The notes beneath the pieces are model-generated. The model searched no databases. It had not been told where the DNA came from and saw only the letters and a program-made list of their open reading frames with translations. DNA of 60,088 nt from a virus. Positions within the stretch are counted from its first letter, which is position 1. Every line of letters starts with the position of its first letter. The stretch covers positions 1 through 60,088 of IMG/VR virus record IMGVR_UViG_3300021963_006531; one strand, given 5' to 3'. This document shows, one piece after another, positions 25,671-50,926 of this stretch. The position numbers and the translations under genes were made by a program.

Positions 25671-26045
25671 ATGTCAAAAATAAAAGGAACACTTAGACCA
25701 TTGAAAGACAAAGTTATAGTAACTGACATGAACTTTGGCGAGGGTAAAACTAAAGGTGGTATTTTACTTACTAGTGATGATGGCAAAAGTAGTGGATTAC
25801 ACCCAAGATGGTGTCGTGTTTTATTCGTAGGTGATGAACAAAAAGATATCAAAGTTGGACAGTGGTTGCTTATGCAACACGGTCGTTGGACTAGAGCAAT
25901 GACTTACGAAAATGATCAAGGTGAAGAAATTAAAATTCATATGATTGATTTGGAAGGTGTGCTTTTAGCAAGTGATGAAAAACCAGAAGATGGTGATGAA
26001 AGAGTAGCAATTGGTGCTATGAACTTTAATATTCCAGGACAATAA
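25671..26045 (+). CDS. GroES-like co-chaperonin (gp31-type)
   Basis: A 124-residue protein with the GroES layout: LRPLKDKVIV at the start, then a mobile-loop-like segment GEGKTKGGILLTSDDG resembling the GroES loop that binds GroEL (T-x-G-G-I-x-L), then a beta-barrel core. In T4, gp31 replaces GroES so that the host GroEL can fold the major capsid protein; the same role is likely here. Longer than GroES (about 97 residues), with an extra segment around RWCRVLFVGDEQKDI. Ribosome binding site GGAG before ATG; the stop overlaps the next ATG (TAATG). Confidence 0.7.
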   Translation: MSKIKGTLRPLKDKVIVTDMNFGEGKTKGGILLTSDDGKSSGLHPRWCRVLFVGDEQKDIKVGQWLLMQHGRWTRAMTYENDQGEEIKIHMIDLEGVLLASDEKPEDGDERVAIGAMNFNIPGQ

Positions 26046-27254: not shown

Positions 27255-28171
27255 AACAGTTATGGGTAGAAAAATATCGTCCAAAAACAGTTGACGGTTA
27301 TGTTTTTAGAGACGACAATCAACGTATGCAAGTACAGTCTTGGATTAAACAGGGAAGTATTCCACACTTACTTTTAAGTGGTAGTCCCGGCATTGGAAAA
27401 ACTACTTTGGCAAAACTTCTGCTCAATGAGTTAGAAATTCCAGATTATGATGTATTAGAGATTAATGCATCACGTGAAAGAGGTATTGGGGAAGTTAGAG
27501 ATAGAATTACTAATTTTATTAGCATGATGCCATTTGGTCCTTTCAAGGTAGTATTGCTAGACGAAGCAGACATGCTGACTCCGGAAGCGCAGGCTGCTAT
27601 GCGTGGTGTTATGGAAGAGTATGCAAGTACAAGTCGATTTATTTTGACTTGTAATCATCCTAATCAAATTATACCTGCAATACACAGTCGTTGCCAACAA
27701 TTCCACTTTGAAAAAATTGATCAAACAGAATTTACTGCTCGTGTAGCGACAATTCTTGTTGAAGAAAATATTGAATTTGATTTAGATACTTTGGACACAT
27801 ACGTTAAAGTAACATATCCAGACTTACGTAAATGTATTAATCTAGTTCAACAAAATTGTAGAGACAATTCACTAGTAGCACCCAATTCCAATGATGCAGG
27901 AATGCAAGATTGGAAAATTAAAATGGTAGAATTGTTCAAAGCTGGTAAGATACAAGATGCACGTAAGCTAATTTGTTCAAGTGCTCGACCAGAAGAATTA
28001 GGTAGTGTTTATCGTTGGATGTATGACAATTTAGATGTTTTTAGTAAAGAAGATGAAGTACAGGACCAAGCAGTACTAATCATTAAACAAGGCTTAGTTG
28101 ATCATACGTTGATTGCAGATCCAGAAATTAATCTAAGTGCAACTTTAATTAAATTAGCTAGACTATCATGA
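27251..28171 (+). CDS. 44: sliding-clamp loader large subunit (gp44-like)
   Basis: An AAA+ ATPase of 306 residues of the RFC-small-subunit/gp44 type. It opens with [14 protein letters not shown], and has Walker A GSPGIGKT (residues 44-51), Walker B LLDEAD (about 102-107), sensor 1 in [10 protein letters not shown] and the arginine finger in SRC (146-148). With the small subunit gp62 (not in this window) it opens the clamp gp45 and places it on DNA; gp45 and gp43 are encoded near 51-55 kb. Overlaps on both sides show tight coupling with the cytidylyltransferase and ferredoxin genes. Confidence 0.93.
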
Positions 28172-28491
28172 CATTCTTAGTTACAGAAAATTGTATTAAA
28201 TGCAAATTTACAGACTGCGTTGCAGTTTGTCCAGTTGACTGCTTCCATGAAGGACCAAATTTTCTAGCTATTAATCCAGACGAATGTATTGATTGCGGAG
28301 TATGTGTTCCTGAATGCCCCGCTGATGCGATAGTTGCAGATAATGATGCAACTGTAGATGTTCCATTTTGGCGTGACTTGAATAAAAAATTAAGTAATCA
28401 ATGGCCTGTCATAACTAGGAAAAAAGATCCACTGCCTGATGCAGATCAATGGAACGGAACTCCAAATAAAATAAATTTATTAGAACCATAA
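28168..28491 (+). CDS. FdxA-type 7Fe/8Fe ferredoxin
   Basis: A 107-residue bacterial ferredoxin. The first cluster site is [20 protein letters not shown] and the second [14 protein letters not shown] (CxxCxxCxxxCP), the arrangement of Azotobacter-type FdxA that holds one [4Fe-4S] plus one [3Fe-4S] or a second [4Fe-4S] cluster. The C-terminal extension ([20 protein letters not shown]) is also typical of FdxA. It is a soluble low-potential electron carrier. Its partner is unknown: candidates include host reductases. The iron-sulfur assembly genes at the left end of the window might help load its clusters. Confidence 0.92.
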
Positions 28492-34500: not shown

Positions 34501-34530
34501 AAAGGCAGCTTGACAGTTGCCTTTCTTTGT
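34501..34530 (+). terminator. terminator-like hairpin with TTGACA in its loop
   Basis: AAAGGCAGC (34501-34509) pairs with GTTGCCTTT (34516-34524), nine pairs with one G-T, around the loop TTGACA. A CTTTGTT stretch follows. The loop is also the -35 box of the dnaJ promoter. Confidence 0.7.
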
Positions 34531-34545
34531 TATATAATAGTGCTA
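34510..34545 (+). promoter_or_regulatory. consensus early promoter, leaderless, for dnaJ
   Basis: TTGACA (34510-34515), 17 bases, TATAAT (34533-34538). Seven bases after the -10 box is the A of the dnaJ ATG (34545), so the transcript should start at the start codon; no ribosome binding site is present. Confidence 0.85.
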
Positions 34546-35411
34546 TGAAAGATTATTATGGAATATTGGGCGTACCAAAAACAGCAACACAGGATGATAT
34601 AAAAAAAGCCTTTAGAAAAATGGCTATGAAACATCACCCTGACCGCGGGGGCGACCAAGGTAAATTTAAAGAGATAAACGAAGCTCACGACATATTGAGC
34701 GACAACGACAAACGTATGATGGTAGATCAAGGAATTGATCCACTTAATCCAAATCAACGACAAGGACAGCATTTCCATAGTAGCGGTAGTCCTTTTGAAT
34801 TCCATTTTGGTGGTCATCCGCACATGGATGATATTTTAAGAGGGTTTGGATTTAACTTTGGTGGTCCACAATGGGGCAACCAACCTCCTAGAAAAAATAA
34901 ATCTCTTAATATTAATCTAAATGTTAGTTTAGAGGAAGTTTATACAGGGGTTACTAAAGAGTTAGAATTAACTTATCCTGGTAATAATGTAAGGTCTATT
35001 AAAATAGAAATCCCTAAAGGTGTAGACAATGGGGTAACTATTAGATATGAGGGCATGGGAGATAGGTCAAATGTTGGGTTTCCTCCTGGGGATCTTTTAG
35101 TAAATATCAATGTCATGCCACATCCTGCATTTGTTAGAGAAGGAATGAATTTATTAAGAGATGTGATGGTAGATTGTTTTTCAGCAATTACAGGCACAAG
35201 CGTAGCATTTGTCACTTTAGATGGTAGAAGACTTGAAGTCACTATCCCACCTGGAGTGCAATCTGGAACTACACTTGGATTAAAAAATGAAGGTATGAAA
35301 GACAATAAAGGTAACGTAGGAAAACTTTATGTAAGAGTCAATATACAAATTCCTACACATCTGTCAACAGAAGTTCTTGATTTAGTTGAGCAAATAAAAA
35401 ATAAAATTTAA
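34545..35411 (+). CDS. dnaJ: DnaJ/CbpA-type co-chaperone
   Basis: A 288-residue J-domain protein. The J domain (residues 1-70) has the essential HPD in KHHPDRGGD, a Gly/Phe-rich region follows (HFHSSGSPFEFHFGGHP), and the C-terminal substrate-binding domains (SLEEVYTGVTKELELTYPG, IEIPKGVDNGVTIRYEGMGD) end the protein. It lacks the CxxCxGxG zinc finger, so it is closer to CbpA (type II). It would recruit host DnaK. It starts the chaperone run with the deformylase and ClpA genes. The longer frame from 34527 is rejected because the promoter overlaps it. Confidence 0.9.
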   Translation: MKDYYGILGVPKTATQDDIKKAFRKMAMKHHPDRGGDQGKFKEINEAHDILSDNDKRMMVDQGIDPLNPNQRQGQHFHSSGSPFEFHFGGHPHMDDILRGFGFNFGGPQWGNQPPRKNKSLNINLNVSLEEVYTGVTKELELTYPGNNVRSIKIEIPKGVDNGVTIRYEGMGDRSNVGFPPGDLLVNINVMPHPAFVREGMNLLRDVMVDCFSAITGTSVAFVTLDGRRLEVTIPPGVQSGTTLGLKNEGMKDNKGNVGKLYVRVNIQIPTHLSTEVLDLVEQIKNKI

Positions 35412-35420: not shown

Positions 35421-35926
35421 TGGCATTAACAATAATAAAATATCCAAATCCAATATTAGATGAAGTCATGCCAGATTTTGACTTTGAAAATCCAATAATG
35501 GATCCTAAAGAATTAGAAATAGACATGCTGGCTTGCATGTTTGCCAATAATGGGATTGGGCTTGCGGCTCCGCAAGTAGGTATCAAAACTAGAGTGTTTA
35601 CCATGGGACATGTTTCCATGCCTGAAAATAGTTTTGCAGTATTCAATCCAGTTATTGTTGATTGCAGTACTGATATACGTATGCTAGAAGAAGGATGTTT
35701 AAGTTTTCCTGGAGTCTACGCTAATGTTAAGCGACCATCGTGAATAGTTGCTGAGTACTTTGATAAGAATGGAGAAAAGAAAACAGATAAACTTGAAGGG
35801 TATAACTGTGTTTGTTTCTTACATGAAATGGACCACTTAAACGGAGTAGTTTTTAAGGATAGACTTAGTCAGTTAAAATGGGCGTTGGCTATTAAAAAAT
35901 CAAAGAAGGTAAAACATTATGCTTGA
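35420..35926 (+). pseudogene. def: peptide deformylase interrupted by one in-frame TGA
   Basis: All three deformylase motifs are present: GIGLAAPQ, EGCLS and HEMDH, the last two supplying the metal ligands. But codon 108 is TGA (35741-35743), between the second and third motifs, after KRPS where related enzymes continue. Downstream the frame remains open for 60 codons with good sequence (AEYFDKNGEKKTDKLEGYNC) and overlaps the start of clpA by eight bases. The upstream part alone lacks the HExxH metal site and should be inactive. Other genes in this window use TGA as stop, so a changed genetic code is unlikely. It is a fresh nonsense mutation, stop readthrough, or a sequence error. Confidence 0.85.
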
Positions 35927-38195
35927 ACCAAACGAAGAATTAGAACAAATTTTTGAAAATGCTGTACTGACAGCCATAAACCATAAACACCAATACATTA
36001 CATTAGAGCATTTCCTCTATAGTATGGTTCGTAATCCAACTTTTAATCGTATTCTAACTGACTATGGTATTAAAGTTGACGATTTAGTTTCTAAATTAGA
36101 AAATTATATTAACAACGAGCTTATTAGTATTGTTGACATAGATTTAAATTCTAGACCAAAGAAAACAAATAGCGTAGAAAGAATGCTTAACAGAGCATTC
36201 ACACAAACACTATTTGCTGGAAGAACCACTATTGAACCATTAGATTGTTTCCTAAGCATATTACACGAAAAGAAAAGTCATGCTGCCTTCTATCTACGTA
36301 GTTCTGGGATTGAAAAAGACAAATTTATTGATTACTTAAACAAAGAGAATTTAAATCAATTGGGTGAAGAAAATGAAAATGTTCCTGAAAACAAACTAGA
36401 AGCTATCATTAATAATTTCTGTACCAATCTAAATAACAAGGTTAAACAAAAACAAATTGACCCAGTTATTGGTCGTGATAAAGAAATTGAGGAGATGCAA
36501 TTAGTACTTGCGAGACGTCACAAAGCCAATGTTATGTTGATTGGAGATCCAGGTGTTGGTAAAACTGCGCTTGCAGAAGGGTTAGCACGTAAGATTGTTG
36601 AAGGCAATGTCCCTAAGTTTATTCAAGACCATACAGTTTATACATTAGATATTAGTTCATTGCTTGCTGGTTCTAAGTATCGAGGAGATTTTGAAGAACG
36701 TCTTAAAACTGTACTTACTGCTATACAAAAACGTAAGAAAGCAATCTTGTTTATTGATGAAGCGCACATGATGAACGGTGCTGGTGCATCAAGCGGTCAA
36801 AGTAATGATATGGCAAATATGTTAAAACCTGCTTTAGCCAAAGGCGGATTTAAGGTTATTGCATCTACTACATGGGAAGAATATCGTAAACACTTTGAAA
36901 AGGATCGTGCGCTAATGCGTCGATTCCAACGTGTAACTATTGACGAGCCTAATGAAGAAACATGTATTAAGATTCTAAAAGGTCTTCGCAAATATTACGA
37001 AAAACACCATGGTGTTAAGATCACCAATCAAGCTATTCTTGATAGTGTCAAATATTCTATCAAATATATGAGTGATAAAAAGCTACCTGATAAGGCCATT
37101 GACTTGATAGATTGTGCATCAGCACGTTTTAAAGTTAAAGATGAAGAAGGCGGAGTAGTTGATCACGATGAGATTGTATTTGAAGTGGCAAAGATTACAG
37201 GACTCCCCTTGGAACAGATTGCCGCAAAAGAAACCAAAGTCTTACATGATTTAGAAACAAGTATTAAGTCGGAAGTATTTGGACAGGATACAGCAGTTGA
37301 ATCATTGCTAGACAAGATTTACATTGCACAAGCTGGTTTGAAATCACACAATAAGCCCGTTGGTAGTTTCTTATTTGTAGGACCAACTGGTTGTGGTAAA
37401 ACTGAAACTGCAAAGGTACTATCTGAAAAAATGGGTGTCAAACTTATTCGATTTGACATGAGTGAATTCCAAGAGAAACACTCCGTTGCTAAATTTATTG
37501 GTGCTCCTCCAGGATATGTAGGTTTTGAAGATAACGCAGGACAGTTAATTACTACTCTGCAAGAAAATCCAAATTGTGTATTATTGTTAGACGAAATTGA
37601 AAAAGCACACCCAGATGTAAGTAATGTATTACTTCAATTAATGGATAACGGTTTCGTAACTGGGTCCAACGGTAAGAAAGCAGATGCACGTAACGCTATT
37701 CTTATTATGACCAGTAATCTAGGCGCCGCTGATGGTGAGAAGAAGAACATTGGATTTGGTAATCAAGATAAGTTAGGTACTACTGACGAAGCGGTCAATA
37801 AATTCTTTGCTCCTGAATTTCGCAATCGTTTAGATGGCATTATTAAGTTTAAGAAACTTGAACATAGTGTTATGATTAAAGTAGTAGACAAGTTTATCAA
37901 AGAAATGAATTCTTTAGTTTCTGATAAAAATGTGTTTGTACAGTTAACTGATAGCACTAAAGAATTCTTAATTGAAAAAGGATTTGATCCTAAGATGGGT
38001 GCTAGACCAATGCAACGAGTAATTGATGATAAAATTAAGCGTCCTCTAAGTAGAGAGATCTTATTTGGTCGATTAATCAACGGTGGTATTGTACAAGTAG
38101 CGTATGTAAACAATGATCTAGTATTTGAATATATGGATCCACTACCAATTGCACCAAGTGTACCAGTTCAAGATGAAGAAATCATTGAAGATTAA
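35919..38195 (+). CDS. clpA: ClpA-like AAA+ unfoldase
   Basis: A 758-residue protein, the same length as ClpA of E. coli. It has the ClpA N-domain, AAA module D1 with GDPGVGKT (209-216) and ILFIDEAHMM, then D2 with GPTGCGKT (488-495) and LLLDEIEKAHPD. No long coiled-coil insert is present between them, so it is not ClpB. The loop NIGFGN (about 610-615) has the IGF-type tripeptide used by ClpA to dock on ClpP. No clpP is in the window, so it could use the host ClpP or act alone. Full-length ClpA in a phage is uncommon. Confidence 0.92.
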   Translation: MLEPNEELEQIFENAVLTAINHKHQYITLEHFLYSMVRNPTFNRILTDYGIKVDDLVSKLENYINNELISIVDIDLNSRPKKTNSVERMLNRAFTQTLFAGRTTIEPLDCFLSILHEKKSHAAFYLRSSGIEKDKFIDYLNKENLNQLGEENENVPENKLEAIINNFCTNLNNKVKQKQIDPVIGRDKEIEEMQLVLARRHKANVMLIGDPGVGKTALAEGLARKIVEGNVPKFIQDHTVYTLDISSLLAGSKYRGDFEERLKTVLTAIQKRKKAILFIDEAHMMNGAGASSGQSNDMANMLKPALAKGGFKVIASTTWEEYRKHFEKDRALMRRFQRVTIDEPNEETCIKILKGLRKYYEKHHGVKITNQAILDSVKYSIKYMSDKKLPDKAIDLIDCASARFKVKDEEGGVVDHDEIVFEVAKITGLPLEQIAAKETKVLHDLETSIKSEVFGQDTAVESLLDKIYIAQAGLKSHNKPVGSFLFVGPTGCGKTETAKVLSEKMGVKLIRFDMSEFQEKHSVAKFIGAPPGYVGFEDNAGQLITTLQENPNCVLLLDEIEKAHPDVSNVLLQLMDNGFVTGSNGKKADARNAILIMTSNLGAADGEKKNIGFGNQDKLGTTDEAVNKFFAPEFRNRLDGIIKFKKLEHSVMIKVVDKFIKEMNSLVSDKNVFVQLTDSTKEFLIEKGFDPKMGARPMQRVIDDKIKRPLSREILFGRLINGGIVQVAYVNNDLVFEYMDPLPIAPSVPVQDEEIIED

Positions 38196-39433: not shown

Positions 39434-39781
39434 ATGAAATTACTTGAATTCTTCAGCAAAGCAAACTCGGATGATGATGACGCTAAGATTGAGACCGATC
39501 TAAAAAAAGATTTAATGGGCTTTATTCTTGACGATGATGAACTATACAAAGAACACATTCTTCCCCTTGTATCAAAACTTAAAAAAGGCAAGGATGTTGA
39601 AAAGGAAGATTTCATGAAAGCAATCAATCAAGGATGCTTAAAGTTCTATAAAGAAAAAGAGTTTAAAAAAGATCCTAACAAAATGTTCCCAATTAAGATG
39701 CGAAAGGAAATGGCAGGAGATTTATTAACCATCAATACCAAAGGCTCAAAAAAAGATGAAAATTCAAGAACTACTGATTGA
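39434..39781 (+). CDS. small acidic protein, first gene of the cargo run
   Basis: A 115-residue charged protein starting MKLLEFFSKANSDDDD, a variant of the leader repeated in the following genes but without the terminal glutamate. It is acidic at first and Lys-rich later (KFYKEKEFKKDPNKMFP). No domain recognised. It overlaps the next gene by 26 bases. Could be a core or scaffold component that goes with the cargo proteins; this is inference. Confidence 0.55.
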   Translation: MKLLEFFSKANSDDDDAKIETDLKKDLMGFILDDDELYKEHILPLVSKLKKGKDVEKEDFMKAINQGCLKFYKEKEFKKDPNKMFPIKMRKEMAGDLLTINTKGSKKDENSRTTD

Positions 39782-40142
39782 GAGTATTATAAAGCCTGAC
39801 TTATTGAACATGTTCCTAAAACATTGTTCTGAAGAATTAGGACTCGAATCTTTGCCTGAGATAAATCTTGTTGATGATAAACAATACTCCATTGATCATA
39901 AATCTTTTGGAGGTTATCAACCGGGAAAGCAATCAATTATATTAGCTACCAAAGATAGACACCCTGTAGATATTTTTAGAACATTGGCACATGAACTAAC
40001 ACATTATAAACAAGATTTAGATGGACAATTAGAAGATGATAATGTAGGCGACACTGGTAGCCCACAAGAAAATGAAGCCAATGCAAGGGCAGGAATAATA
40101 ATGCGTAATTTTGGTCAGAAGTTTCCAGAAGTATTTGAATAA
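39756..40142 (+). CDS. zinc metallopeptidase with putative capsid-targeting leader
   Basis: A 128-residue protein. The leader is MKIQELLIES (gp21-type site L-I-E). A HExxH motif H79-E-L-T-H83 in LAHELTHYKQD gives two metal-binding histidines and the catalytic glutamate, and ENEANARAG (105-113) supplies a likely third ligand. This is a compact zincin of the type found in many phages. If packaged and injected, it could cut a host protein at entry. Substrate unknown. Confidence 0.75.
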   Translation: MKIQELLIESIIKPDLLNMFLKHCSEELGLESLPEINLVDDKQYSIDHKSFGGYQPGKQSIILATKDRHPVDIFRTLAHELTHYKQDLDGQLEDDNVGDTGSPQENEANARAGIIMRNFGQKFPEVFE

Positions 40143-40150
40143 GGTCCGAT

Positions 40151-41167
40151 ATGCGTATTAAAGAATTATTTGAAGGAGGGTGGGATACCACAAAAACACA
40201 GAGTACAGAGTTAACACCTTCTGTAGTACGTGTGGCCCTTGGTGTGGTAGATCAATTTGTTAAAGACTTCAATAATTATACTAATTCACAAGGTATACCT
40301 CCAATACAGCGTGGTAAGCCAACAGGTAGTACTGCATACTATGAGCAAGACGAAGTAGAAAAACCAGATAACATTTACGGCGACATTGATCTTCAAATGA
40401 TTGCACCAATCAAAGAAAATGAAACAAATGCACAATTTACCAGTTACTGGAATAATTTAACTGATCAATTTGCAAAAAGTGGTCAAGTAAATTATATAGA
40501 TACCAGTGAAAGTAAACCAGGACATCCTATTATTCAAGTTGGACGTGATCAATTTGTACAAGTAGATTTTATGTGGCATCCAGGTAAATTAGCTAGATGG
40601 GGCGCGGCACGTGTAACTCCAGAGCGTGGCGTTAAAGGTATGTTATTTGGTAATATGTTTAGTGTTTTTGGTGAATTATTAGACATGAGTATACAACATG
40701 CTGGAGTACAATTAAAAGTTGTTGATGATCAACGTGTTCCATTTAGTAAGCAAAAAGGAACACAATTGATAACTGTTACTATTGAACCAGAAACGTTTGT
40801 ATTAGATACATTTAAATATCTTGCAAAAAGGATGGGTATTGATAATCCTAAAATTGATCCTTTGTTGTCAAAATTTCCTGGTAATAATATAAATGATGTT
40901 AAAATTTCCACATTAGTAAACTCTGTTAAAGGATTTGCTGCCAGTGCTCAAGCAAATGGAATGTTTGGTAAAAATGATTTAAGTAATTTTGCGTCAGGAC
41001 AGGATTTCTTAAATAAATTTTTGCAAAGATATGAAGAAAAAGCTATGATAGATGTACAAGGCAAAAAACGTGACAAAGCAACAACCCCAGAGGCACAGGC
41101 ACGTGCAGAAGCAGATAAACAAAAGATACTAAGTGGTCTTGAAATGGTTAAAGGATTATTCCAATGA
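40151..41167 (+). CDS. pol-beta-type nucleotidyltransferase with cargo leader
   Basis: The leader is MRIKELFEGG (site L-F-E). The nucleotidyltransferase core is visible: GSTAYYEQD (G59-S60) and YGDIDLQM with D78 and D80, the two metal-binding aspartates, then a third in FVQVDFMW (D139). This is the GS-DxD-D pattern of polymerase-beta-like enzymes that transfer nucleotides to proteins, RNA or small molecules (MNT, tRNA-CCA, DUF294 types). The C-terminal half is helical and basic. Product and substrate are unknown; injection with DNA is inferred from the leader. Confidence 0.65.
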   Translation: MRIKELFEGGWDTTKTQSTELTPSVVRVALGVVDQFVKDFNNYTNSQGIPPIQRGKPTGSTAYYEQDEVEKPDNIYGDIDLQMIAPIKENETNAQFTSYWNNLTDQFAKSGQVNYIDTSESKPGHPIIQVGRDQFVQVDFMWHPGKLARWGAARVTPERGVKGMLFGNMFSVFGELLDMSIQHAGVQLKVVDDQRVPFSKQKGTQLITVTIEPETFVLDTFKYLAKRMGIDNPKIDPLLSKFPGNNINDVKISTLVNSVKGFAASAQANGMFGKNDLSNFASGQDFLNKFLQRYEEKAMIDVQGKKRDKATTPEAQARAEADKQKILSGLEMVKGLFQ

Positions 41168-41541
41168 GAGCAAGAGAATTTGTAAATGAGGCGACAGAAA
41201 AGAAAATAACAAATAGGCAGGGCCAATCTCTTGCTGGTTTGAACGTTTATACTGACGCTGAAAAAAGAGATGCAACTTATGTATCTTATAGATTGGGAAT
41301 GGCTGTAGCAGGAACAGATGGTGAAATTGTTCCAGATACTGATGCTAGGAGTTGGATTGGCAAACAAAAATCAACACACCCTTATACTCCTGAAGAACAG
41401 GAAATGCTCAAAGTAGCTTACAAAGTAGTTGGTGCAGAATATACAGATTTGACAAAGGGCGATATGAAAAGTCGAGAACTAAAAACTACCAATACTGTTA
41501 GTCCTGTAGCAAAAATTAAAAAGAACAAGTACGGTGTATAA
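41164..41541 (+). CDS. conserved hypothetical cargo protein
   Basis: A 125-residue basic protein with the leader MRAREFVNEA (site V-N-E, a weaker match). It has a central phrase ARSWIGKQKSTHPYTPEEQE and a Lys-rich end. No domain recognised. It overlaps both neighbours by one to four bases, and the following two genes also have the leader, so it is likely a packaged internal protein. Confidence 0.65.
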   Translation: MRAREFVNEATEKKITNRQGQSLAGLNVYTDAEKRDATYVSYRLGMAVAGTDGEIVPDTDARSWIGKQKSTHPYTPEEQEMLKVAYKVVGAEYTDLTKGDMKSRELKTTNTVSPVAKIKKNKYGV

Positions 41542-42374
41542 TGAAAATAACTGAACTATTATTTGAAAGTGGGAAACGACTTGCCAAGCAAGGTATTGAA
41601 ATATCTAGAGTAGACAAAGTTGCCTTTCTAAAAGCCAAATCTATTTTAGATCCAATACTGAAAAAAGCTAAACTAAAGGCTGGTTGGACTGCTGGAGGTG
41701 CTGGTAGTTTTGATCCTGAACATCCTTATGGTGGCGGTGGCAGAGATGACAGTGGTGACATTGATATCATGATAGATCCAGAAAATCTTTTAAGAAGTTT
41801 TCCACCAAACATTGAAGAATATAATAGAGCAAGTCCAAAACCACTTGGTCCAAAAGCTATGGCTAACACATTAGCTGATCCAAATAAAAAAGCAAGATTA
41901 GAATTAGCTGCCAGTAAATGGGCATTGGCAACTTATATGACTCAAAATGGACTTCCAACTGATCCAGGAACACTTACTGTAGAATATAGTGCTGACGGTA
42001 AAAGTCATTCAGTAGACTTAATTGTTCGTCCAGAGAGTGCATGGGAATTACATGCACATGATTTCACTAGGGATCCTGAAATGAAAGGCGGACAACTGTT
42101 TACAGACGTGTATCCAACATTGGTTAAACTAGCCAGCAAATCTACTTTTGTAGATCCAAAGACTGGAGAAGAAAAAGGAAGTTTACAGTACAGTCCAGAT
42201 AGAGGACTAGTAGATAGAGAAACTAATCAAGTGGTTGCTATCAACAAGAACGATATTGCAAAAATACTTTTAGGACCACAAGCTACTGCAAGAGATATGT
42301 CTAGCATTTCTGGCATTAGAGACGCTCTAAAAAATGATCCAGCAAAGTTAAGTCAAGTTTTCCCTCAAAGTTAA
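41541..42374 (+). CDS. second nucleotidyltransferase with cargo leader
   Basis: The leader is MKITELLFES (site L-F-E). A nucleotidyltransferase core is present: GAGSFDPE with G55-S56, RDDSGDIDIMID with D73 and D75, and a third aspartate in HSVDLIVRP (D159). It is not closely similar to the gene at 40.2 kb, so these are two separate enzymes or a very old duplication. The rest is helical. Substrate unknown. The ATG overlaps the preceding stop (TAATG). Confidence 0.65.
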   Translation: MKITELLFESGKRLAKQGIEISRVDKVAFLKAKSILDPILKKAKLKAGWTAGGAGSFDPEHPYGGGGRDDSGDIDIMIDPENLLRSFPPNIEEYNRASPKPLGPKAMANTLADPNKKARLELAASKWALATYMTQNGLPTDPGTLTVEYSADGKSHSVDLIVRPESAWELHAHDFTRDPEMKGGQLFTDVYPTLVKLASKSTFVDPKTGEEKGSLQYSPDRGLVDRETNQVVAINKNDIAKILLGPQATARDMSSISGIRDALKNDPAKLSQVFPQS

Positions 42375-42377
42375 ACA

Positions 42378-42392
42378 AATAAATACATATTA
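42378..42392 (+). promoter_or_regulatory. late promoter, leaderless
   Basis: TAAATA at 42380-42385 followed by CATATT and ATG at 42392; expected start is one base ahead of the ATG. Confidence 0.65.
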
Positions 42393-45028
42393 TGAACTTA
42401 TTTGAACTGTTTAAACCTGTTAAAAACATTATTATGGAAGGCATTGACCATCCAGAAGACCTCATTATTTCGCAAGGTAGTGCAGGTGCCGACAGAGTTT
42501 TGGCAGATTTATCCAGCTTACAAAAAGATCCAAGTACAATCAGTGTTAAATGGGACGGGTTTCCAGCAGTAGTGTTTGGTAGAGATAGTACAGGCAAACT
42601 TGTTTTCATGGACAAACACATGTATGACAAGGTAGTCAAAGGTGCTATGGAATTTATGTCCATTAAAGATTATGACATATCTAGAGAAGCTAATCGTGGC
42701 AACCTTTGGGAAACAGAAAGTGCATTGCGTCCTACATTAGATAAAATTATTCCTAACGTAAAAGATCAATATTGGATGGGAGACTTGATGTGGACTGGTA
42801 CTCCTAAAACTTCTGATGGCTACTTTGTTTTTAAACCTAACACCGTAGAATATCGTGTTAAAATTGATGATACTCCTGGACGTGGCAATACATTAAGCGA
42901 TCAAATCGCACGTAGTATTGGTGGTATTGCGGTACATACTTTTATTCCTGGTCTTGGTCAATCAGACCAACCATTGATTGGCTTAAAAGGTTTAAGAGAA
43001 AACGAAGGAATTGTTTTTCTTGTAGGAGAAATGAGAGACAAACCAAAAGTTGGAATTAATTCAGCTTTATTAAATCAAACTAAGGCTATTATTAGTCAAC
43101 ACAGAACAGCCGTTGATAAATTTATTTCAGATCTAACAGCAATGAAGGGCAAAGCAGTTATTACTGCCATGGGGCCTTTTATTACACGTATGCTTGAAGA
43201 AGATGATATATCTGGTAATATTGTTCCAAGATTTTTAGAATTTCTAAAAGAGCGTCTAAATGACACTGCACAAAATAAATTTTTAGGCGCTAAGAAAGAC
43301 GGTTGGTTATATCAAGAACAGGGCGGTGGTCCAGGACTATTAGGTATTTGGACAATGTGGGCCGCAATTACAGAATTAAAAACTCACATAAAACAACAAA
43401 TTGACACACAGCAACAAGGTAGTGAAATTATTGCTATAACTGATGGTGTTAATGCACACGAAGGTTATGTATTTGGTTCAGGAAAAGACAAATTAAAATT
43501 AATTGATCGTTTAGGTTTTAGTCGTGCTAATTTTGCTAAACATCGTGTACCAGATGATGAAATAGAAGCAAAGAGCAAAATGCCAATGGCAACTTTTTGT
43601 TTTGGTCGTATGAATCCTCCAACACTTGGTCACGGACTTGTGATACAAAAAACTTTAGAAGTAGGTGGTGAAAATTCTTTTATCTTTTTAAGTAATAGCC
43701 ACGACGCTAGTGAAAATCCAATTGATCCAACTACTAAAGCACAATTTGTAGCGCAAATATATCCTAACGCAGCCGACAAACTTGTACAAGATTTTGTACA
43801 AGGACCAATATATGCAGCCAATTGGTTATATAGTAAAGGTTTTAGAAATATGACATTTGTTGCAGGTAGCGATAGATTAGGAAAAGAAAAAGGTAGTATT
43901 GAAAAACTTTTAACCAGTTGGAACAGTGGTCCAATACGCTCCACAGATCCTGCAGGTGCAAGAGAGCATGTTGTTATTAAATTTGAGAGTAGCGGTCAGC
44001 GTGATCCTGATTCCGAGGGGGTGACCGGTTACAGTGGAACAAAAGCTCGCCAAGCGGCGGAAACTGGCAACGAGCAGTTATTCCAGAAATATACAGGTGT
44101 TGGTCCTGACGTCGTTGTAAACGGCAAAACATTATATCAAGCAACAAGAGAAGGTATGGGGATTAAAGATGAAAAACCAACAGCCCAGTCATCTCCTGTT
44201 AAGCAACCTGCTCAACCCAATTTACAAGTAACTAAAAAAGTTCCAGGCAAGGCTCCAATTAGTAAGGAAGTAGATTCTATGAACGAATCAAAACTACGCG
44301 ACAAAGAAGATTTAAAAGCAAAACGTAAGGCTCTGCAAGATATCCAGATGGATAAACATACACATAAAGATCCAGAATTAAAAGCAGAACTAGCAAGAAG
44401 AAAAGCGTCTTTAGAAAAAGAAGCAAAGAAAATGAATCTGTCTGAATCAATCGTCCACGCATACGGTATTTTTGAAGAACAACAATCATTCTTAGACAAA
44501 ATAAAATCAGCTTTTAAAAGCCAAAGTCCTGTAAATGATAAAGTAAAGTATGGTGATACTGCTTATCCCAAATCACCTTTACAACCAGTAAGAGATAAAT
44601 TTCAATCAGGAACATTGGATGTTAATCCAGATAGTACCATTGGAAGATTAAACCAGCGCAATGCCGCAATAAAAGCAGCCGGTGATGAAGCCAATGAAGA
44701 TCGTGTTAAAATGGCTGCTAGAAAAAATGTGTCTGAAGCACCGATCCAAATGGACCCAGACAATCCAAACGATCCAATGGTCATGCCTCCTGGACTTAAC
44801 CCAGGCAAACTAAGTTATAGAAAAGCAAGAGCGGCTGCACAATTAGCAGACCTTGCACGGATGGCTGCTGAAGCAAATGAAAAAAATAGTGCTATAATGT
44901 GGGACTCAATCGTTAGACACTTTCCTGAATTAGAAACAAATATTCGTAGCATTCAACACGGACAAGACGAATTACAAAAATTAAGAAGCAAAGGCGGAGT
45001 GCGTAGTAGGGGCATAGACAAAATATGA
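42392..45028 (+). CDS. nucleic-acid ligase-like + NMNAT-like fusion, putative cargo protein
   Basis: An 878-residue protein. After a leader variant (MNLFELFKPV) the N-terminal part looks like a ligase-fold nucleotidyltransferase: the K-x-D-G motif in SVKWDGFPAV (K53), a GDLMWTG segment, EGIVF (205-209, motif IV-like), and AHEGYVFGSGKDKLKLID near 355-370 (motif V-like). Residues about 400-590 have the HxGH-type core FGRMNPPTLGHG (404-415), GSDRLGKEKG and YSGTKARQAAE, as in nicotinamide-nucleotide adenylyltransferases. The last 280 residues are basic and coiled. It might repair nicks and make NAD, or modify RNA ends; this pairing is unusual. The leaderless late promoter precedes it. Confidence 0.7.
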   Translation: MNLFELFKPVKNIIMEGIDHPEDLIISQGSAGADRVLADLSSLQKDPSTISVKWDGFPAVVFGRDSTGKLVFMDKHMYDKVVKGAMEFMSIKDYDISREANRGNLWETESALRPTLDKIIPNVKDQYWMGDLMWTGTPKTSDGYFVFKPNTVEYRVKIDDTPGRGNTLSDQIARSIGGIAVHTFIPGLGQSDQPLIGLKGLRENEGIVFLVGEMRDKPKVGINSALLNQTKAIISQHRTAVDKFISDLTAMKGKAVITAMGPFITRMLEEDDISGNIVPRFLEFLKERLNDTAQNKFLGAKKDGWLYQEQGGGPGLLGIWTMWAAITELKTHIKQQIDTQQQGSEIIAITDGVNAHEGYVFGSGKDKLKLIDRLGFSRANFAKHRVPDDEIEAKSKMPMATFCFGRMNPPTLGHGLVIQKTLEVGGENSFIFLSNSHDASENPIDPTTKAQFVAQIYPNAADKLVQDFVQGPIYAANWLYSKGFRNMTFVAGSDRLGKEKGSIEKLLTSWNSGPIRSTDPAGAREHVVIKFESSGQRDPDSEGVTGYSGTKARQAAETGNEQLFQKYTGVGPDVVVNGKTLYQATREGMGIKDEKPTAQSSPVKQPAQPNLQVTKKVPGKAPISKEVDSMNESKLRDKEDLKAKRKALQDIQMDKHTHKDPELKAELARRKASLEKEAKKMNLSESIVHAYGIFEEQQSFLDKIKSAFKSQSPVNDKVKYGDTAYPKSPLQPVRDKFQSGTLDVNPDSTIGRLNQRNAAIKAAGDEANEDRVKMAARKNVSEAPIQMDPDNPNDPMVMPPGLNPGKLSYRKARAAAQLADLARMAAEANEKNSAIMWDSIVRHFPELETNIRSIQHGQDELQKLRSKGGVRSRGIDKI

Positions 45029-46254
45029 AAATTACACAATTATTAGAAGGCAGCAAGCCTCAAAAAATTCCTGCAAGTAAACCACGAAACTTTGTGGTCA
45101 AGAATCAGCAGACCAGTGGCGCTGGCTCACATAAAGACAAAAAGAAAGCAGCCAAGCAGGGTGATGTTAAGCATAAAAATAAAGACATGGAAATGTCTGA
45201 AGACCATTTAAACGAGTACGGCGATACTGCTAAAGGTCAGAAGATGCTGACTAAAGTTCAAAAACGTGCAGTAGATCGTGTAACAAGTAAACGAGCAGAC
45301 ACTGATCCTAAGTACGCTAAAAAGAATAGTGATACCGCTAATCGTGCTTGGGATAGAATGACAGACAAAGATTTAGAAGAAACTTTTGATGATGTTAAAG
45401 ATACTGTTGCAAAAGTTGGTGATAAAGTTAGCGACACCTTATCAAATATCTTACCAAAAGATATGCGACCTTTTGATAATGAAACAGCCGCAAAAAATGC
45501 CGCAACAAATTCTGCGGCATTTAAACCAGTTGTGAAGACTGCATCAGTAACACAAAAACCAATTAAAGAATCTAAAGTTTACGAGCAATATGTTGGCAAT
45601 GGCTCTAGTAAAAATATGCAAATGGCTGTTGACCAAGCCAAGATGCACGCCAAGATACAGGCTATGAGAGCAATACACGGTAACAATTTTCATGATAAAG
45701 AAATGGTTGCACATGAATTTGGAAAATTAGATATTCAAAGTGATGGTAAAGGCGGTTATAAAGTCAATGCTCCCATTACTGTACTACAACCAAAATCTAA
45801 TTCCATAGATAGCAGTCCAGCAACTAATAACATTTCTAACCCACCCAACAGTTATATGGATAGCAGTCCTGCTAAAGATAATGGAACAACTACTAGTAAA
45901 ATGTCTCCTATGGAAAGCATGGCAGACAGTATAGTTAAAGAAATGAATAGAAATCCAGACTTAATGAGTCAAAGCGATTATGATCGTTATCAACAAAGCC
46001 AAATGGATAATCAGAAACGCAATTTCAAACGTGACGAATTAGAACATGAACTTAGTCACGAAGACAGAGGTATGTATTGGGTTGTGGTTGCAAAAAATGG
46101 TAAATGGGAACATACTAAAGCACAGCCTAAACAAGAAGGTATGAATGCGGCCATGCGTTTGATTAGTGCATTGCATAGTAAATATCCAGGCATGCACTTA
46201 GGTATGCAATATCCTAATGGGCAAGTAGAAAATTTTGGAAAAGGTAGAAAGTAA
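45025..46254 (+). CDS. basic internal head-type protein
   Basis: A 409-residue highly basic protein with the leader MKITQLLEGS (site L-L-E) and a Lys-rich stretch GAGSHKDKKKAAKQGDVKHK that I recognise from T4-like cyanophage proteins of unknown function. Middle: AKMHAKIQAMRAIHGNNFHD; C-terminal: a small domain RGMYWVVVAKNGKWEHTKAQ. The charge suits DNA binding in the capsid or on injection. No enzyme motif seen. Confidence 0.65.
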   Translation: MKITQLLEGSKPQKIPASKPRNFVVKNQQTSGAGSHKDKKKAAKQGDVKHKNKDMEMSEDHLNEYGDTAKGQKMLTKVQKRAVDRVTSKRADTDPKYAKKNSDTANRAWDRMTDKDLEETFDDVKDTVAKVGDKVSDTLSNILPKDMRPFDNETAAKNAATNSAAFKPVVKTASVTQKPIKESKVYEQYVGNGSSKNMQMAVDQAKMHAKIQAMRAIHGNNFHDKEMVAHEFGKLDIQSDGKGGYKVNAPITVLQPKSNSIDSSPATNNISNPPNSYMDSSPAKDNGTTTSKMSPMESMADSIVKEMNRNPDLMSQSDYDRYQQSQMDNQKRNFKRDELEHELSHEDRGMYWVVVAKNGKWEHTKAQPKQEGMNAAMRLISALHSKYPGMHLGMQYPNGQVENFGKGRK

Positions 46255-46255
46255 A

Positions 46256-46690
46256 ATGGACAAGTATCATTTAGCACTAAAGACAGCATTTGCTAGTGAA
46301 TATGCTTTTTATTTAAAGGCACAAAATTTCCATTGGAATGTAGAGGGAATGTTCTTTGAACAATTTCACAGTTTGTTTGGAAAAATTTATGAGGAAGTAG
46401 GTGATGTCATTGACGACTTTGCAGAAAATTTACGCAAAGTCAATGCTTATGCACCTGCTAGTTTTAGAAGATTCAGTATGCTCAGCGAAATAGATGACGA
46501 AACAGAAATCTTAGAAGCAACAAGTATGTGTGCTACCCTTCTAGCTGATAGTGAAAAAATGGAAGAGATTTTTAAAATCACTTATCAAATGGCAGAGGAT
46601 AATAGAGATTTTGGTCTAGCTAACTTCCTAGCAGAACGTCAAGATGCACATGCTAAACATAGTTGGATGTTAAGAGCCACGTTAAAATGA
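46256..46690 (+). CDS. Dps-like ferritin
   Basis: A 144-residue four-helix protein with the Dps signature: FHWNVEGMFFEQFHSLFGKI (His and Asp/Glu ferroxidase ligands) followed by IYEEVGDVIDDFAENLR. Dps proteins form dodecamers that oxidise and store iron and protect DNA from oxidative damage. It lacks the cargo leader but lies within the cargo run, and its start at 46256 overlaps nothing. It could protect phage or host DNA during infection. Confidence 0.85.
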   Translation: MDKYHLALKTAFASEYAFYLKAQNFHWNVEGMFFEQFHSLFGKIYEEVGDVIDDFAENLRKVNAYAPASFRRFSMLSEIDDETEILEATSMCATLLADSEKMEEIFKITYQMAEDNRDFGLANFLAERQDAHAKHSWMLRATLK

Positions 46691-46983
46691 AACAGTACAG
46701 AGTCACTTCAGAAAATATAAACCTAAGTAGCGATGATGATTGCTATTTAGATCCAAACGATCCTATAAATGAAATCAAAGTATTACAGCATTTAGGTGGA
46801 ATCAATTCTGTAAGTAGACTACAAGAGTATCGCTTATCTCAGCAAGAAAGCAATATTAGTACTACTGCTAATGAAAATGCAAAGTTAATGAGGGAACACA
46901 ATATTAAACCTGGAACCCCTGAGTGGTTCCAACTTTGGTTTAGTTTACCGTATATGACTGGTGAAAAGAAGGTTGAAAAATGA
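46687..46983 (+). CDS. small conserved hypothetical protein
   Basis: A 98-residue protein with the phrase ANENAKLMREHNIKPGTPEW then FQLWFSLPYMTGEKK, which I know from small proteins of T4-like marine phages of unknown function. No leader and no enzyme motif. The ATG overlaps the Dps stop (ATGA) and the end overlaps the next gene, so it is coupled to both. Confidence 0.65.
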   Translation: MKQYRVTSENINLSSDDDCYLDPNDPINEIKVLQHLGGINSVSRLQEYRLSQQESNISTTANENAKLMREHNIKPGTPEWFQLWFSLPYMTGEKKVEK

Positions 46984-48044
46984 AAATACAAGATTTATTA
47001 GAGTTTGCTCCAACAGTGGATAAAGACTCAGCATTAGGAAAAGTATTAGGAAACCCTGATGTTCAAAACACTATTGACAAAATAGGTAATTCATTGTCCA
47101 ATGTATTCAAACCATCAGTTGAGAAAGGCGCCGATGTTGAACCTAAAAATACTGATAAGAAAACTTCAAAAAGTAAATCAAGTAGATCAGTGGATATTTC
47201 AGATATGGAGCCAGAATTTGAAAGACAAGGTATTAAAGACCCATTTGTAAAAAACGCATTGATGGGCAAGTTTCATCAAGAAGCAGGTGCAAAATTTGGT
47301 ACTACTGAGATTCCGTTTACTAACACATCAAATAAAAGAATTAAAGAAAAGTTACCGCAGTTAGCTGGTATGAATGATGACGAATTAAATGCACTTAAAG
47401 CAGATCCTAGAGCATTTTTTAATAGAGCATATGGCGGAGTATTAGATAATACTGGACCAGATGACGGTTACAAATTCCGTGGTCGTGGATTAACTGGATT
47501 AACTGGTAAAACAAATTATTCGGCTGCTTCACAAGCACTGTTTGGTGATGACAGATTAGTTAAAAATCCTGATTTACTTTTAGATCCTGAAGTAGACAAA
47601 AAGGCAGCAGTATGGTATTATAAACGTGCTGGTGCAGATAAAGTATCATTTAGTAATCAAGAAGACGCCAATATTTGGGCAATACACAAAGCTGGTGGTA
47701 AAGCCTATGCTCCAGGAACTAAGTTAGGAAATATTGCACTTGCTGATCTTAATAATAAAACTGGAAATATGACCAGTGGTACTGGCACTATGGTTGCTAA
47801 AGGCGGAGACAATACTGGCAAAATAATTGCAGGCAGTACTTTATTGGCTAAAGCAGATGAATTGATAAACAAATATAAAACAGAGTTGCCTAAATTTATA
47901 TCTTCAATTAGTGACTTATCTGGGGGTGAAGATGAAGTTGCTGTAATAATTAATGGTAAGAAAAAGAAATTTAAGAATAAAAAAGAAGCTGAACTAGCAA
48001 TAAAGTTAGCCAAAGATCAAGGACTTACAGTAGATTATGCGTAA
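46980..48044 (+). CDS. GH19-like lysozyme with cargo leader (virion muralytic enzyme)
   Basis: A 354-residue protein with the leader MKIQDLLEFA (site L-L-E). The catalytic module (about residues 75-230) has FHQEAGAKFG (candidate catalytic E101) and DGYKFRGRGLTGLTGKTNYS, like chitinase-type lysozymes. Unlike the cytoplasmic endolysin at 31 kb it carries the leader, so it could be packaged and help the DNA or tail cross the cell wall at entry. A lysine-rich C-terminal segment (INGKKKKFKNKKEAELAIK) follows. It overlaps the next gene by eight bases. Confidence 0.7.
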   Translation: MKIQDLLEFAPTVDKDSALGKVLGNPDVQNTIDKIGNSLSNVFKPSVEKGADVEPKNTDKKTSKSKSSRSVDISDMEPEFERQGIKDPFVKNALMGKFHQEAGAKFGTTEIPFTNTSNKRIKEKLPQLAGMNDDELNALKADPRAFFNRAYGGVLDNTGPDDGYKFRGRGLTGLTGKTNYSAASQALFGDDRLVKNPDLLLDPEVDKKAAVWYYKRAGADKVSFSNQEDANIWAIHKAGGKAYAPGTKLGNIALADLNNKTGNMTSGTGTMVAKGGDNTGKIIAGSTLLAKADELINKYKTELPKFISSISDLSGGEDEVAVIINGKKKKFKNKKEAELAIKLAKDQGLTVDYA

Positions 48045-48681
48045 ACCAGAAGTTTATTTAGATATGGATGGTGTTATAGCAGACTTTTTTACAGAGTATG
48101 CTAAACTTGCTGGCATTGAAAATGGCAACTATAGAGATATACCTCCAGCAAAAACTGATCCAACATTGAACAAAATGATTGGAACAGACTTCTTTGCTAG
48201 ACTACCAAAATGTCCTAATGCAGACGCTCTAGTAGATATGATAGTGAAAACTTTTGGATACTATCATATCTGTTCAAGTCCTCTAAGAGGAGACTTTGAA
48301 AACAGTGAAAAACAAAAGAAGATTTGGTTAAAGAAGAATTTAAAGCATCAACCAACTGATGTTATCATTACACCTAATAAGGCCAAATATGCTGTTCAAT
48401 CAGACGGAACTCCTAATATACTAATAGATGACAGGGGTAGTAATATTAGTGCTTGGGAGGCAAAAGGCGGTATTGGTATCAAATATCAAGCAGATGAAGA
48501 TAGTTTACAAGTTGTCATTGACGGAATAAAAAGAGCCTTTCAAGTAATTAAAGGTGAACAGAAACACGAACCTCAAAAGCTACAAAGTTTAGATCGAAGT
48601 AGCGGCAACTTAATTGCGAAAAGTGGCGATGATGAAGAACACGGTTCTACTTCTAAGATACCAGGTAAGGAACAACAATGA
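48037..48681 (+). CDS. HAD-family 5'(3')-deoxyribonucleotidase-like phosphatase
   Basis: A 214-residue HAD hydrolase. Motif I is VYLDMDGVIADF (D-x-D at residues 9 and 11 type), a Ser-rich motif II is CSSPLRGDFEN, and motif III/IV NILIDDRGSNI supplies the acidic metal ligands. This arrangement matches phage and bacterial 5'(3')-deoxyribonucleotidases, which dephosphorylate dNMPs. The 60-residue C-terminal tail is hydrophilic. Lies within the cargo run without leader. Confidence 0.75.
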   Translation: MRKPEVYLDMDGVIADFFTEYAKLAGIENGNYRDIPPAKTDPTLNKMIGTDFFARLPKCPNADALVDMIVKTFGYYHICSSPLRGDFENSEKQKKIWLKKNLKHQPTDVIITPNKAKYAVQSDGTPNILIDDRGSNISAWEAKGGIGIKYQADEDSLQVVIDGIKRAFQVIKGEQKHEPQKLQSLDRSSGNLIAKSGDDEEHGSTSKIPGKEQQ

Positions 48682-49490
48682 AAATTTCAGAATTATTAAC
48701 AGAAGCTGATATGCCTGAATCTCTAAAGGATATACCTGTGGTAAGTTTTGGTGATTATAAACTAACTGCTGGAGATGTTGCAGATGTATTACCGGGTGTT
48801 GGACCAGAAGATGTAATTGAGCAAGGAAAATATTTAAAAGATTTTCTTTCAACAAAAATTAAAGGCGATTATACAAGAGCAGATGCATTAATTGACATAG
48901 CAACGTTTTATCCAGCTTTTAGAATCAGCAAGTGGGCACTAGCGGCACGTGGTGGTGCAGGAGCCGCAGGTAAAGAAGTTGCCAAAGGAGCCTTAAGAAG
49001 AGAAGTTGGTCAACAGGTACAACAAAAAGCAGACATACTTCCCTCAATGAAAGACTCTAAAAAATCAGGATCAGGCGGAGTTTCGCCAATAGCTACTAAA
49101 ATAACATCTCCATCTAGAAAAAGAAAATATAAAGTAGGAGATCAAGTTCCAGTTGAAGTCAAAGGCAAACAAGAAGTGGGAGTCGTGTCTAATGTATTGC
49201 CTAATGGTTATGAAGTTGATATTAGTCATGTAAAAGATTCTCCGTCAAAATCAGTTAATATCCCTGAACCCATGTTTGAAGAAGCCAGCGCAGGCGCTAC
49301 TTCCGCAGGTAATATTGCCAGTACAGGGAATAGTCCTCATATAGCCGCAGGAACTCCAGCTGTTTTAAAACGATGGAGTGGGGAACCCGGAAAAATAGGA
49401 AAAAGCATTAAGCCTCCCAAAACAGAACCTCAAGATTCTGACGATAATCCTGTGACAAATCCCAAAGTTGGCAACAACTTAATTTCATAA
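48678..49490 (+). CDS. cargo-leader protein with KOW/SH3-like segment
   Basis: A 270-residue protein with the leader MKISELLTEA (site L-T-E, the closest match to the T4 cleavage consensus). The N-terminal half is hydrophobic and helical (WALAARGGAGAAGKEVAKGA, perhaps membrane-active), and a segment KRKYKVGDQVPVEVKGKQEV then GVVSNVLPNGYEVDI resembles small beta-barrel KOW/SH3-type modules. The C-terminus is a Pro/Ser/Lys-rich tail. Function unknown; likely packaged in the head and injected. Confidence 0.65.
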   Translation: MKISELLTEADMPESLKDIPVVSFGDYKLTAGDVADVLPGVGPEDVIEQGKYLKDFLSTKIKGDYTRADALIDIATFYPAFRISKWALAARGGAGAAGKEVAKGALRREVGQQVQQKADILPSMKDSKKSGSGGVSPIATKITSPSRKRKYKVGDQVPVEVKGKQEVGVVSNVLPNGYEVDISHVKDSPSKSVNIPEPMFEEASAGATSAGNIASTGNSPHIAAGTPAVLKRWSGEPGKIGKSIKPPKTEPQDSDDNPVTNPKVGNNLIS

Positions 49491-49513: not shown

Positions 49514-50926
49514 ATGCCTTTTAAGAGTAAAAAACAAAAAAGAACCATTGATGCGGCAGCACATAACCCTGCTTTTGCAAAGAAAGTAGGAATCAAGACC
49601 AGTGATGCTAAAAAAATGTCTGCACATGGCAAGGGTCAAACTAAGTTTGAAGAAGCTAAGGATACTGTAGAAAAAGATGAAAAAGGCAACGTCAAATCAT
49701 GGAAGCATGAGGGCGATTGGAAAAAATCAAACGACAAAGAAGGGCGTGGCAAAGTGACTAATTTAAGTGATAAAGCTCGTCGCAAGACAGAGAAATTAAG
49801 TAAAGCAGAAAAGGAAATGGCTGAAGCATTTGAAAATGCTATTTCAGAAGTTACTATTACTTCAGGCCCAAATAAGGGTAAGCAGTGGAGCCCAAAAAAT
49901 CCAGGACCAACAAATAAAAATTATAAAGAAATTGATGGCAATATACCAAGTCCACCAGATGGAGCAACTGCACCTCCTCCAGGATATAAGCCACCGCAGC
50001 CAAAGTCAAATAAAAGTTCGGCAGTAAATTCAGATGATGCAGAAATGACTGCTGAAGCAAAACAAACTTACGGTGGTAAAGGAAAACAAATGACTAAATC
50101 ACAACATGATGCTGATGTAAAGAAAAAGAAAGAAAAAGAAAAAATGAAAAAAATGGCTGAGGCATTTATTCAAATTGGCCGTTTAGAACAAATGATCTTT
50201 GAAGCTAAAAAGACTAAAAATAAAGAAGAGACTCCAAAAGAAGGCAATGCTTTCGGTGATGCTGTTCGTAAAGCTAAAGAAGACGGTATACAAAAAGGTG
50301 AAAAAGTCAAAGTAGGTGGCAAAGAATATCCAGTCAAAGAATCAAGCAAAGATAAAGAATGCAACCATACACCAAAAGGTAAAAAATGTCCAGTGCATGG
50401 ATTAAAAGAGTGCGGAATGTATGAAGGCAACGATGGTAATCTAGCTAACAATGCTAAACCATACGACAAAGTAACACGTGGTGATGTTATTGCTGGACGC
50501 TTGGGTAAAGACGAAATGGGTGGTAAGAAGAAAAACAAAAAAACTACTGAAACTTTTATGCCAGTAAAACCAAAACAACCTACACCATCTCCAATTGACC
50601 CAATCAAAAAAGGTTTTAAAAAAGTAGCTGATAAAATTCTAGATAAAGATCCAAAACCAAAAAGTGACATTGGGGATAAAAATATACCTGAACCAACTAC
50701 AAAACCTTTAGAAAAATCTTACGACGAATTTAATGAAGGATATACAATTAACGGAAAGAAAGTTTCTAAAGCTGCCTATGAAAAAGAAATGTCAAAAGCA
50801 GGAAAAGGAAAGAAAAAAGTAAAAGAAGGGTGGACTCATGATAGTTTAGCCGCACAACTTTTTGAAAACGGTGACGAATACGTTGTATCACTCCACAACA
50901 GATTGGCGAAACAGTTAAAAGGTTAA
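49514..50926 (+). CDS. lysine-rich internal or structural protein
   Basis: A 470-residue, strongly Lys-rich hydrophilic protein. It starts PFKSKKQKRTIDAAAHNPAF, similar to phage portal- or core-associated proteins, and contains internal short segments that look like cleavage sites of a gp21-type protease (RLEQMIFEA with I-F-E, and AAQLFENGD with L-F-E). A cysteine/histidine pair in ECNHTPKGKKCPVHGLKECG might bind zinc. Its size, charge and late promoter suit a DNA-compacting internal head protein. No enzyme domain recognised. Confidence 0.6.
   Translation: MPFKSKKQKRTIDAAAHNPAFAKKVGIKTSDAKKMSAHGKGQTKFEEAKDTVEKDEKGNVKSWKHEGDWKKSNDKEGRGKVTNLSDKARRKTEKLSKAEKEMAEAFENAISEVTITSGPNKGKQWSPKNPGPTNKNYKEIDGNIPSPPDGATAPPPGYKPPQPKSNKSSAVNSDDAEMTAEAKQTYGGKGKQMTKSQHDADVKKKKEKEKMKKMAEAFIQIGRLEQMIFEAKKTKNKEETPKEGNAFGDAVRKAKEDGIQKGEKVKVGGKEYPVKESSKDKECNHTPKGKKCPVHGLKECGMYEGNDGNLANNAKPYDKVTRGDVIAGRLGKDEMGGKKKNKKTTETFMPVKPKQPTPSPIDPIKKGFKKVADKILDKDPKPKSDIGDKNIPEPTTKPLEKSYDEFNEGYTINGKKVSKAAYEKEMSKAGKGKKKVKEGWTHDSLAAQLFENGDEYVVSLHNRLAKQLKG

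Follow-up and report, generated by a model that had tools for sequence, protein, structure and literature searches.

A leader-bearing gene run in a T4-like phage fragment recalls an enlarged internal-protein system

The gene run and its members

The window, a virus record of 60,088 bp, is a fragment of a T4-like phage without head genes. It encodes a family B DNA polymerase nearest to that of Sinorhizobium phage Phosso (49%) and also to that of Agrobacterium phage Atu_ph07, a clamp-loader-like AAA protein and a T4 gp9/10-like protein. Several large virion proteins encoded between 1299 and 19443 start with a common module, NIG..NDGTGD..R.AF.KVN.NF.EL, and the first of them matches the N-terminus of T4 gp9/10. 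A SufT-like (DUF59) protein, an A-type Fe-S carrier and a ferredoxin (by eye), encoded at 338-944 and 28168-28491, are unusual for a phage. There also seems to be a chaperone set of the phage's own, with a GroES-like protein (by eye), DnaJ and a Clp ATPase (25671-26045, 34527-35411 and 35919-38195).

Between 39434 and 49490, nine ORFs on the plus strand each open with a variant of one short leader. They are given here with their neighbours, a slash marking the predicted cut.

39434-39781, plus strand: P1, 115 aa; MKLLEFFSK-A, a leader without the glutamate at site position P1
39756-40142, plus strand: P2, 128 aa; MKIQELLIE/S; putative zinc metallopeptidase (HELTH)
40151-41167, plus strand: P3, 338 aa; MRIKELFE/G; probable nucleotidyltransferase of the Pol-beta/CD-NTase type (GS..DID)
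41164-41541, plus strand: P4, 125 aa; MRAREFVNE/A; basic protein, pI 9.2
41541-42374, plus strand: P5, 277 aa; MKITELLFE/S; second nucleotidyltransferase-like protein (GGAGS..DIDI motif)
42392-45028, plus strand: P6, 878 aa; MNLFELFKPVKNIIME/GIDHPED; DUF6267 fused to NMNAT/cytidylyltransferase
45025-46254, plus strand: P7, 409 aa; MKITQLLE/G; basic protein, pI 9.4
46256-46690, plus strand: Dps/ferritin-like gene, interleaved and leaderless
46980-48044, plus strand: P8, 354 aa; MKIQDLLE/F; GH19-type lysozyme/endolysin
48037-48681, plus strand: NT5C nucleotidase, interleaved and leaderless
48678-49490, plus strand: P9, 270 aa; MKISELLTE/A
49284-49487, plus strand: tail of P9, residues 203-270; EE/ASAGATSAGNIASTGN, a copy of the residues that follow the gp23 cleavage site
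49514-50926, plus strand: P10, 470 aa; very basic (pI 9.6), leaderless

The sequence-only reading had described a run of nine such proteins; the nine leaders are there, but the run is broken by the Dps-like gene, an ORF of about 98 aa and the NT5C nucleotidase. The genes overlap or abut (gaps of -26, 8, -4, -1, 17 and -4), which indicates that the leader genes of the window form one operon. The T4 late promoter TATAAATA does not occur in the window, so that transcription gives no support. P10 has a weak match to virion structural families and may be a cargo or a core protein.

Among the functions first assigned to the bodies, NMNAT/cytidylyltransferase, DUF6267 and the GH19 lysozyme have strong matches while the metallopeptidase match is weak, and the labels "two nucleotidyltransferases" and "ligase" have motifs and weak fold matches as their basis. 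For P3, the best Foldseek hit has an E-value of 0.0075, below significance, with probabilities of up to 0.98, and the top folds all belong to the Pol-beta/CD-NTase-type superfamily; the G[GS]...DhD motif is invariant in the P3 and P5 families. By motif and modelled fold, P3 is a probable nucleotidyltransferase of this type; it has no detectable relationship to P5. The DUF6267 half of P6 carries the ligase-like motifs KWDG, EGYV and KLK, of which KxDG, EG and KxK are invariant, and ligases head its Foldseek list, but with E-values above 0.4. Sequence profiles of P3, P5 and DUF6267 gave nothing credible against the PDB, tblastn of P3, P5 and P9 gave no match in isolated phages, and PADLOC matched no defence family. 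P1, P4 and P7 have no recognisable enzyme domain. Taken together, the predicted NMNAT, ligase-like and nucleotidyltransferase activities suggest repair or modification of NAD, RNA or DNA upon entry.

Leader identity, conservation and modularity

The leaders can be summarized as M-(x)1-3-[ILFYA]-x-x-[FL]-[LIVF]-(x)-E/. Among known sequences, the propeptide of the T4 vertex protein gp24 (10 residues) comes nearest, with MAKINELLRE/S against MKIQELLIE/S in P2; P5 and P9 are likewise close to it. The starts of T4 IPII and IPIII, MKTYQEFIAE/A, and the gp23 site, FGSFLTE/A, also fit. In T4, gp24 loses 10 residues and gp23 loses 65, the first 10 residues of IPIII are enough for packaging, and Alt is cleaved at ITE-6 (PMC9958956, PMC9026906, PMC5694885). 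Of 60 window ORFs, a profile built from four T4 sites only gives the three highest ranks to P9, P2 and P5, and six of the best seven are leader ORFs. The likeness to a T4 internal-protein leader that had been proposed is thus borne out: the leader equals documented T4 propeptides removed by gp21, with near-identity to that of gp24. A cleavage site of the form [L/I]-x-E, which had been part of the same proposal, is upheld in a modified form: [LFV]-x-E is correctly placed in seven of the nine leaders, P6 lacks E in the leader but has an I-M-E/G site at residue 16, and P1 has K/Q instead of E at the cut position. Judged from these comparisons, the leader is in all likelihood a capsid-targeting sequence and propeptide of the T4 type, cut off by gp21. 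The phiKZ-type inner-body class, with a long propeptide and A/S/G-x-E, was considered and rejected, the leaders having only 8-16 residues and L/V/I at site position P3.

It is very improbable that the common N-terminus has nothing to do with the head and serves instead as a sorting or translation signal early in infection, or that amphipathic starts of co-expressed genes have converged. MK and MR starts are common in AT-rich phages and the leader has just 8-9 residues, but the T4 gp24 propeptide is nearly identical and the glutamate of the cut is fixed. The pattern M[KRN]xx[EDQ][FL][LFVI], looked for at any ATG, GTG or TTG, has 13 matches among the 2270 start codons of the window; nine belong to the nine leader genes, and the remaining four lie at no gene start. 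When a profile is trained on the nine leaders, its use is circular in the window, though not in the relatives; it finds essentially no further gene start in the window. A search for more leader-bearing ORFs had been proposed together with the initial observation, and the relatives supply them: with this profile, 11 starts reach at least 6 bits in the 214-kb relative G001 (0.6-0.9 expected) and 28 of 486 in the 372-kb relative G002 (0.7-1.2 expected). The expected counts are from internal-methionine and shuffled N-terminus controls, and the enrichment is 12-40 fold.

Proteins that carry the leader, whether in the window or in its relatives, sort into 30 clusters by blastp once the leader is taken off; a few clusters with a single member may reflect chance matches. 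The claim that the bodies are unrelated therefore holds: there is one leader and there are many bodies. The domains behind leaders include HicA, GNAT, SLT transglycosylase, amidoligase, peptidoglycan-binding and a weak PARP-like one. The HicA-type domain (G002, 246143-246385; L074:6143-6385) stands behind the leader MRVSEILEG, with PF07927 above the cut-off. The weak PARP-like match is in a leader protein of 538 aa (L016:3050-4663) and recalls T4 Alt.

Relatives with 50-89% identity in P6 occur on contigs of up to 372 kb. The protease gp21 had also been suggested as something to look for, and it was found, but outside the window: Peptidase_S77 has no match in the window, which is uninformative since the control is without a match anywhere and the window is a fragment, and it is encoded in four longer relatives. 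That gp21 is seen in relatives only is due to the window being a 60-kb fragment without head genes. In both relatives examined, G001 and G002, it lies next to gp22/gp23, and the gp23 cut is placed at YLAE/S and YLME/S.

Within the families, the cut is better kept than the leader. The P5 family has variable leaders (MKITELLFE, MKIIELLE, MRAREFVRE, MRAQEFISE, MLLCELFQRPIKNE), yet E/[SA]G[KR]RL is constant and E9 is invariant in the alignment. In the P6 family, propeptides of 16-22 residues end in E/GI[DE]H, and the homologues of the G002 clade and of cyanophages begin at the predicted mature end (M-AGIAHPEDL; MSKNTHLEHLED). Such starts at the cut site argue against a sorting signal or convergence. 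P2 homologues are leader-less in L016 and L018 and leader-bearing in G002. In the AF2 models, very low confidence is assigned to residues 1-21 in P3 and to residues 1-19 in P6, as in disordered tails. In the P1 family, K/Q is kept in most relatives, and the homologue of the G002 clade has MRITDLLE/N. Since Asp at position 10 in T4 permits targeting and blocks processing, P1 may, by analogy, be targeted but uncleaved, or it may be a core protein.

Leader-type proteins in cyanophage virions

Published mass spectrometry, as far as given in quoted tables, places leader-type proteins in the virions of two isolated T4-like phages. In the S-CREM2 virion proteome (Table 3 of PMC10665884), virion-positive non-structural proteins start with MKNFSSFLTEA (cytidylyltransferase), MKRFDAFLTEE (kinase), MKDFDSFLEEF (SAM hydrolase) and MKDLHSFLTEQ (gp13). 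With the profile from T4 sites only, limited to the N-terminus, these four rank first of 195 non-structural proteins, and all four being positive in that table corresponds to a hypergeometric p=3.5e-4, the strongest functional evidence and an independent one; the N-terminal restriction follows the T4 positions but was imposed after an unrestricted scan had failed to separate the proteins overall (p=0.21 for positive versus negative proteins of the table). Over all S-CREM2 non-structural proteins, the restricted profile shows no significant shift between the two groups (p=0.07), since such a leader is missing from most of the 28 non-structural proteins that the table lists in virions. The window-trained cleavage profile likewise does not separate the two groups. 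A regex test with p=2.4e-4 was not relied on, the pattern having been written after S-CREM2 had been viewed. The S-CREM2 authors themselves caution against possible carry-over (PMC10665884).

The second phage is S-SM1, in whose virions a T4-GC190 cytidylyltransferase is listed as detected (PMC3037559); this protein begins MKKFSAFLNE/AERS. The NMNAT half of P6 has homologues in the cyanophage cytidylyltransferases of the T4-GC190 type. In S-CRM01, the kinase that is cited as a virion protein begins MISFDQFLSE/K, and its gene lies within a run of leader genes, adjoining DUF6267 and NMNAT. Proteins with a like leader in these proteomes, as far as quoted, again argue against a sorting signal or convergence. 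A shared leader is not mentioned in the targeted passages and quoted tables of the cyanophage virion papers, supplements excluded.

Probable packaged cargo and a copy of the capsid N-arm

With high confidence, the leader can be regarded as a T4-type capsid-targeting propeptide and the locus as an operon of packaged, gp21-processed and ejected cargo enzymes. The cargo would be made late, and the leader would dock each protein onto the prohead core of gp22, gp67 and gp68. The gp21 protease would then cleave after the glutamate and set the mature enzyme free inside the shell, DNA would be packaged around the freed enzymes, and these would be ejected with the DNA, to work as soon as infection begins. 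The load would comprise the metallopeptidase, the nucleotidyltransferases, the DUF6267-NMNAT enzyme, the lysozyme and basic proteins. All indirect predictions of this reading that were open to testing agree with it. For the window phage, packaging, cleavage, ejection and what each enzyme does are inferred by analogy; the virus probably loads an enzyme toolkit into every particle and delivers it with its DNA.

The leader proteins could also be parts of the prohead core or scaffold, like gp67, gp68 and gp22; gp21 would cut them and they would leave the head or stay in it, but they would not be working enzymes that are delivered. The same sites do occur on T4 core and shell proteins, the gp67-like proteins of the relatives begin MFLREFIYF and MILRELFYI, and P1, P7 and P4 offer no recognisable enzyme domain. 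Several bodies, however, have enzyme motifs that are intact (NMNAT, GH19, HELTH), homologous enzymes are listed in mature virions in the quoted proteomes, and the cargo varies among relatives, unlike a core, which makes this explanation unlikely.

A second tag may stand beside the leader. The stretch of G001 gp23 that follows the inferred cut, SATAGSTSAGNVATL, is repeated in a single further protein of G001 (121266-121502, L057:1266), a free-standing one in which the copy follows directly after the leader, MKIQEIITE/TATAGSTSASNIASTG. Such a copy occurs once in G002 (171343-171606) and once in the window, in the P9 tail (49284-49487), against at most 0.02 in shuffled proteomes. Besides the small leader protein, only the capsid protein has the arm motif in G001 and in G002. 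The S-CREM2 capsid motif GFTGAAAP is confined to the capsid protein and the virion-positive gp160; tblastn of the N-arm copy of gp160 gave no usable match, with low-complexity filtering as the probable cause. Because post-cleavage capsid residues are copied in cargo, some cargo seems to imitate the capsid's own N-arm, and it is perhaps through this copy that it binds shell sites. Cargo that appears to copy the residues directly behind the cleavage site of the major capsid protein is new here.

It is somewhat more probable than the contrary that T4-like phages of fresh and marine water use one portable leader to tag a large, fast-changing enzyme set into the head (about 10-28 per genome and about 30 unrelated families here), and that one further cargo protein is held on the shell by a second tag, the copy of the post-cleavage capsid N-arm. 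The leader makes the question of which phage proteins are delivered with the DNA, among hundreds of unknowns, a matter of sequence search. It offers an explanation for the NMNAT, kinase and SAM hydrolase in cyanophage virions, and it suggests that injected effector sets exceed that of T4 several times over; it also provides packaging tags and cargo, ready to use, for studying protein delivery by phage heads.

From its sequence, the locus appears to be a much enlarged, new form of the T4 internal-protein system. With IPI, IPII, IPIII and Alt it shares a short N-terminal leader with hydrophobic pairs and an [LIF]-x-E/ end, which in T4 is processed by gp21, a residue behind the cut that is mostly small, bodies unrelated to one another, the gp21 head-gene set (here in relatives) and, in one relative, a weakly PARP-like leader protein reminiscent of Alt. 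T4, however, has four such proteins, against nine in one operon here and about 25-28 candidates in the 372-kb relative, and the bodies are metabolic and nucleotide enzymes, a lysozyme, a metallopeptidase and HicA and GNAT domains, without IP homologues. The gp24 propeptide is almost identical in sequence (KINELLRE/S versus KIQELLIE/S), but gp24 is a capsid vertex protein and not cargo. The inner-body proteins of phiKZ and SPN3US are also packaged head proteins with propeptides cut after Glu, although the propeptides are long, the cleavage motif is A/S/G-x-E and the phage lineage is another one. The virion enzymes of S-CREM2, S-SM1 and S-CRM01 (NMNAT/cytidylyltransferase, kinase, SAM hydrolase, Cas9-like), as far as they are quoted, have the NMNAT family of P6 and T4-type leaders in common with the window, but in the form MKxFxxFLxE instead of MKIxELLxE.

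In cyanophages, a second short module resembling [LM][GN]L..DGHG.[YW], which a strict pattern did not catch, was seen by eye behind the leaders of unrelated enzymes (kinase, Cas9-like, NMNAT), at L083 gp12 and gp14, L089 3752-4915, L092, L094 g128 and L095.
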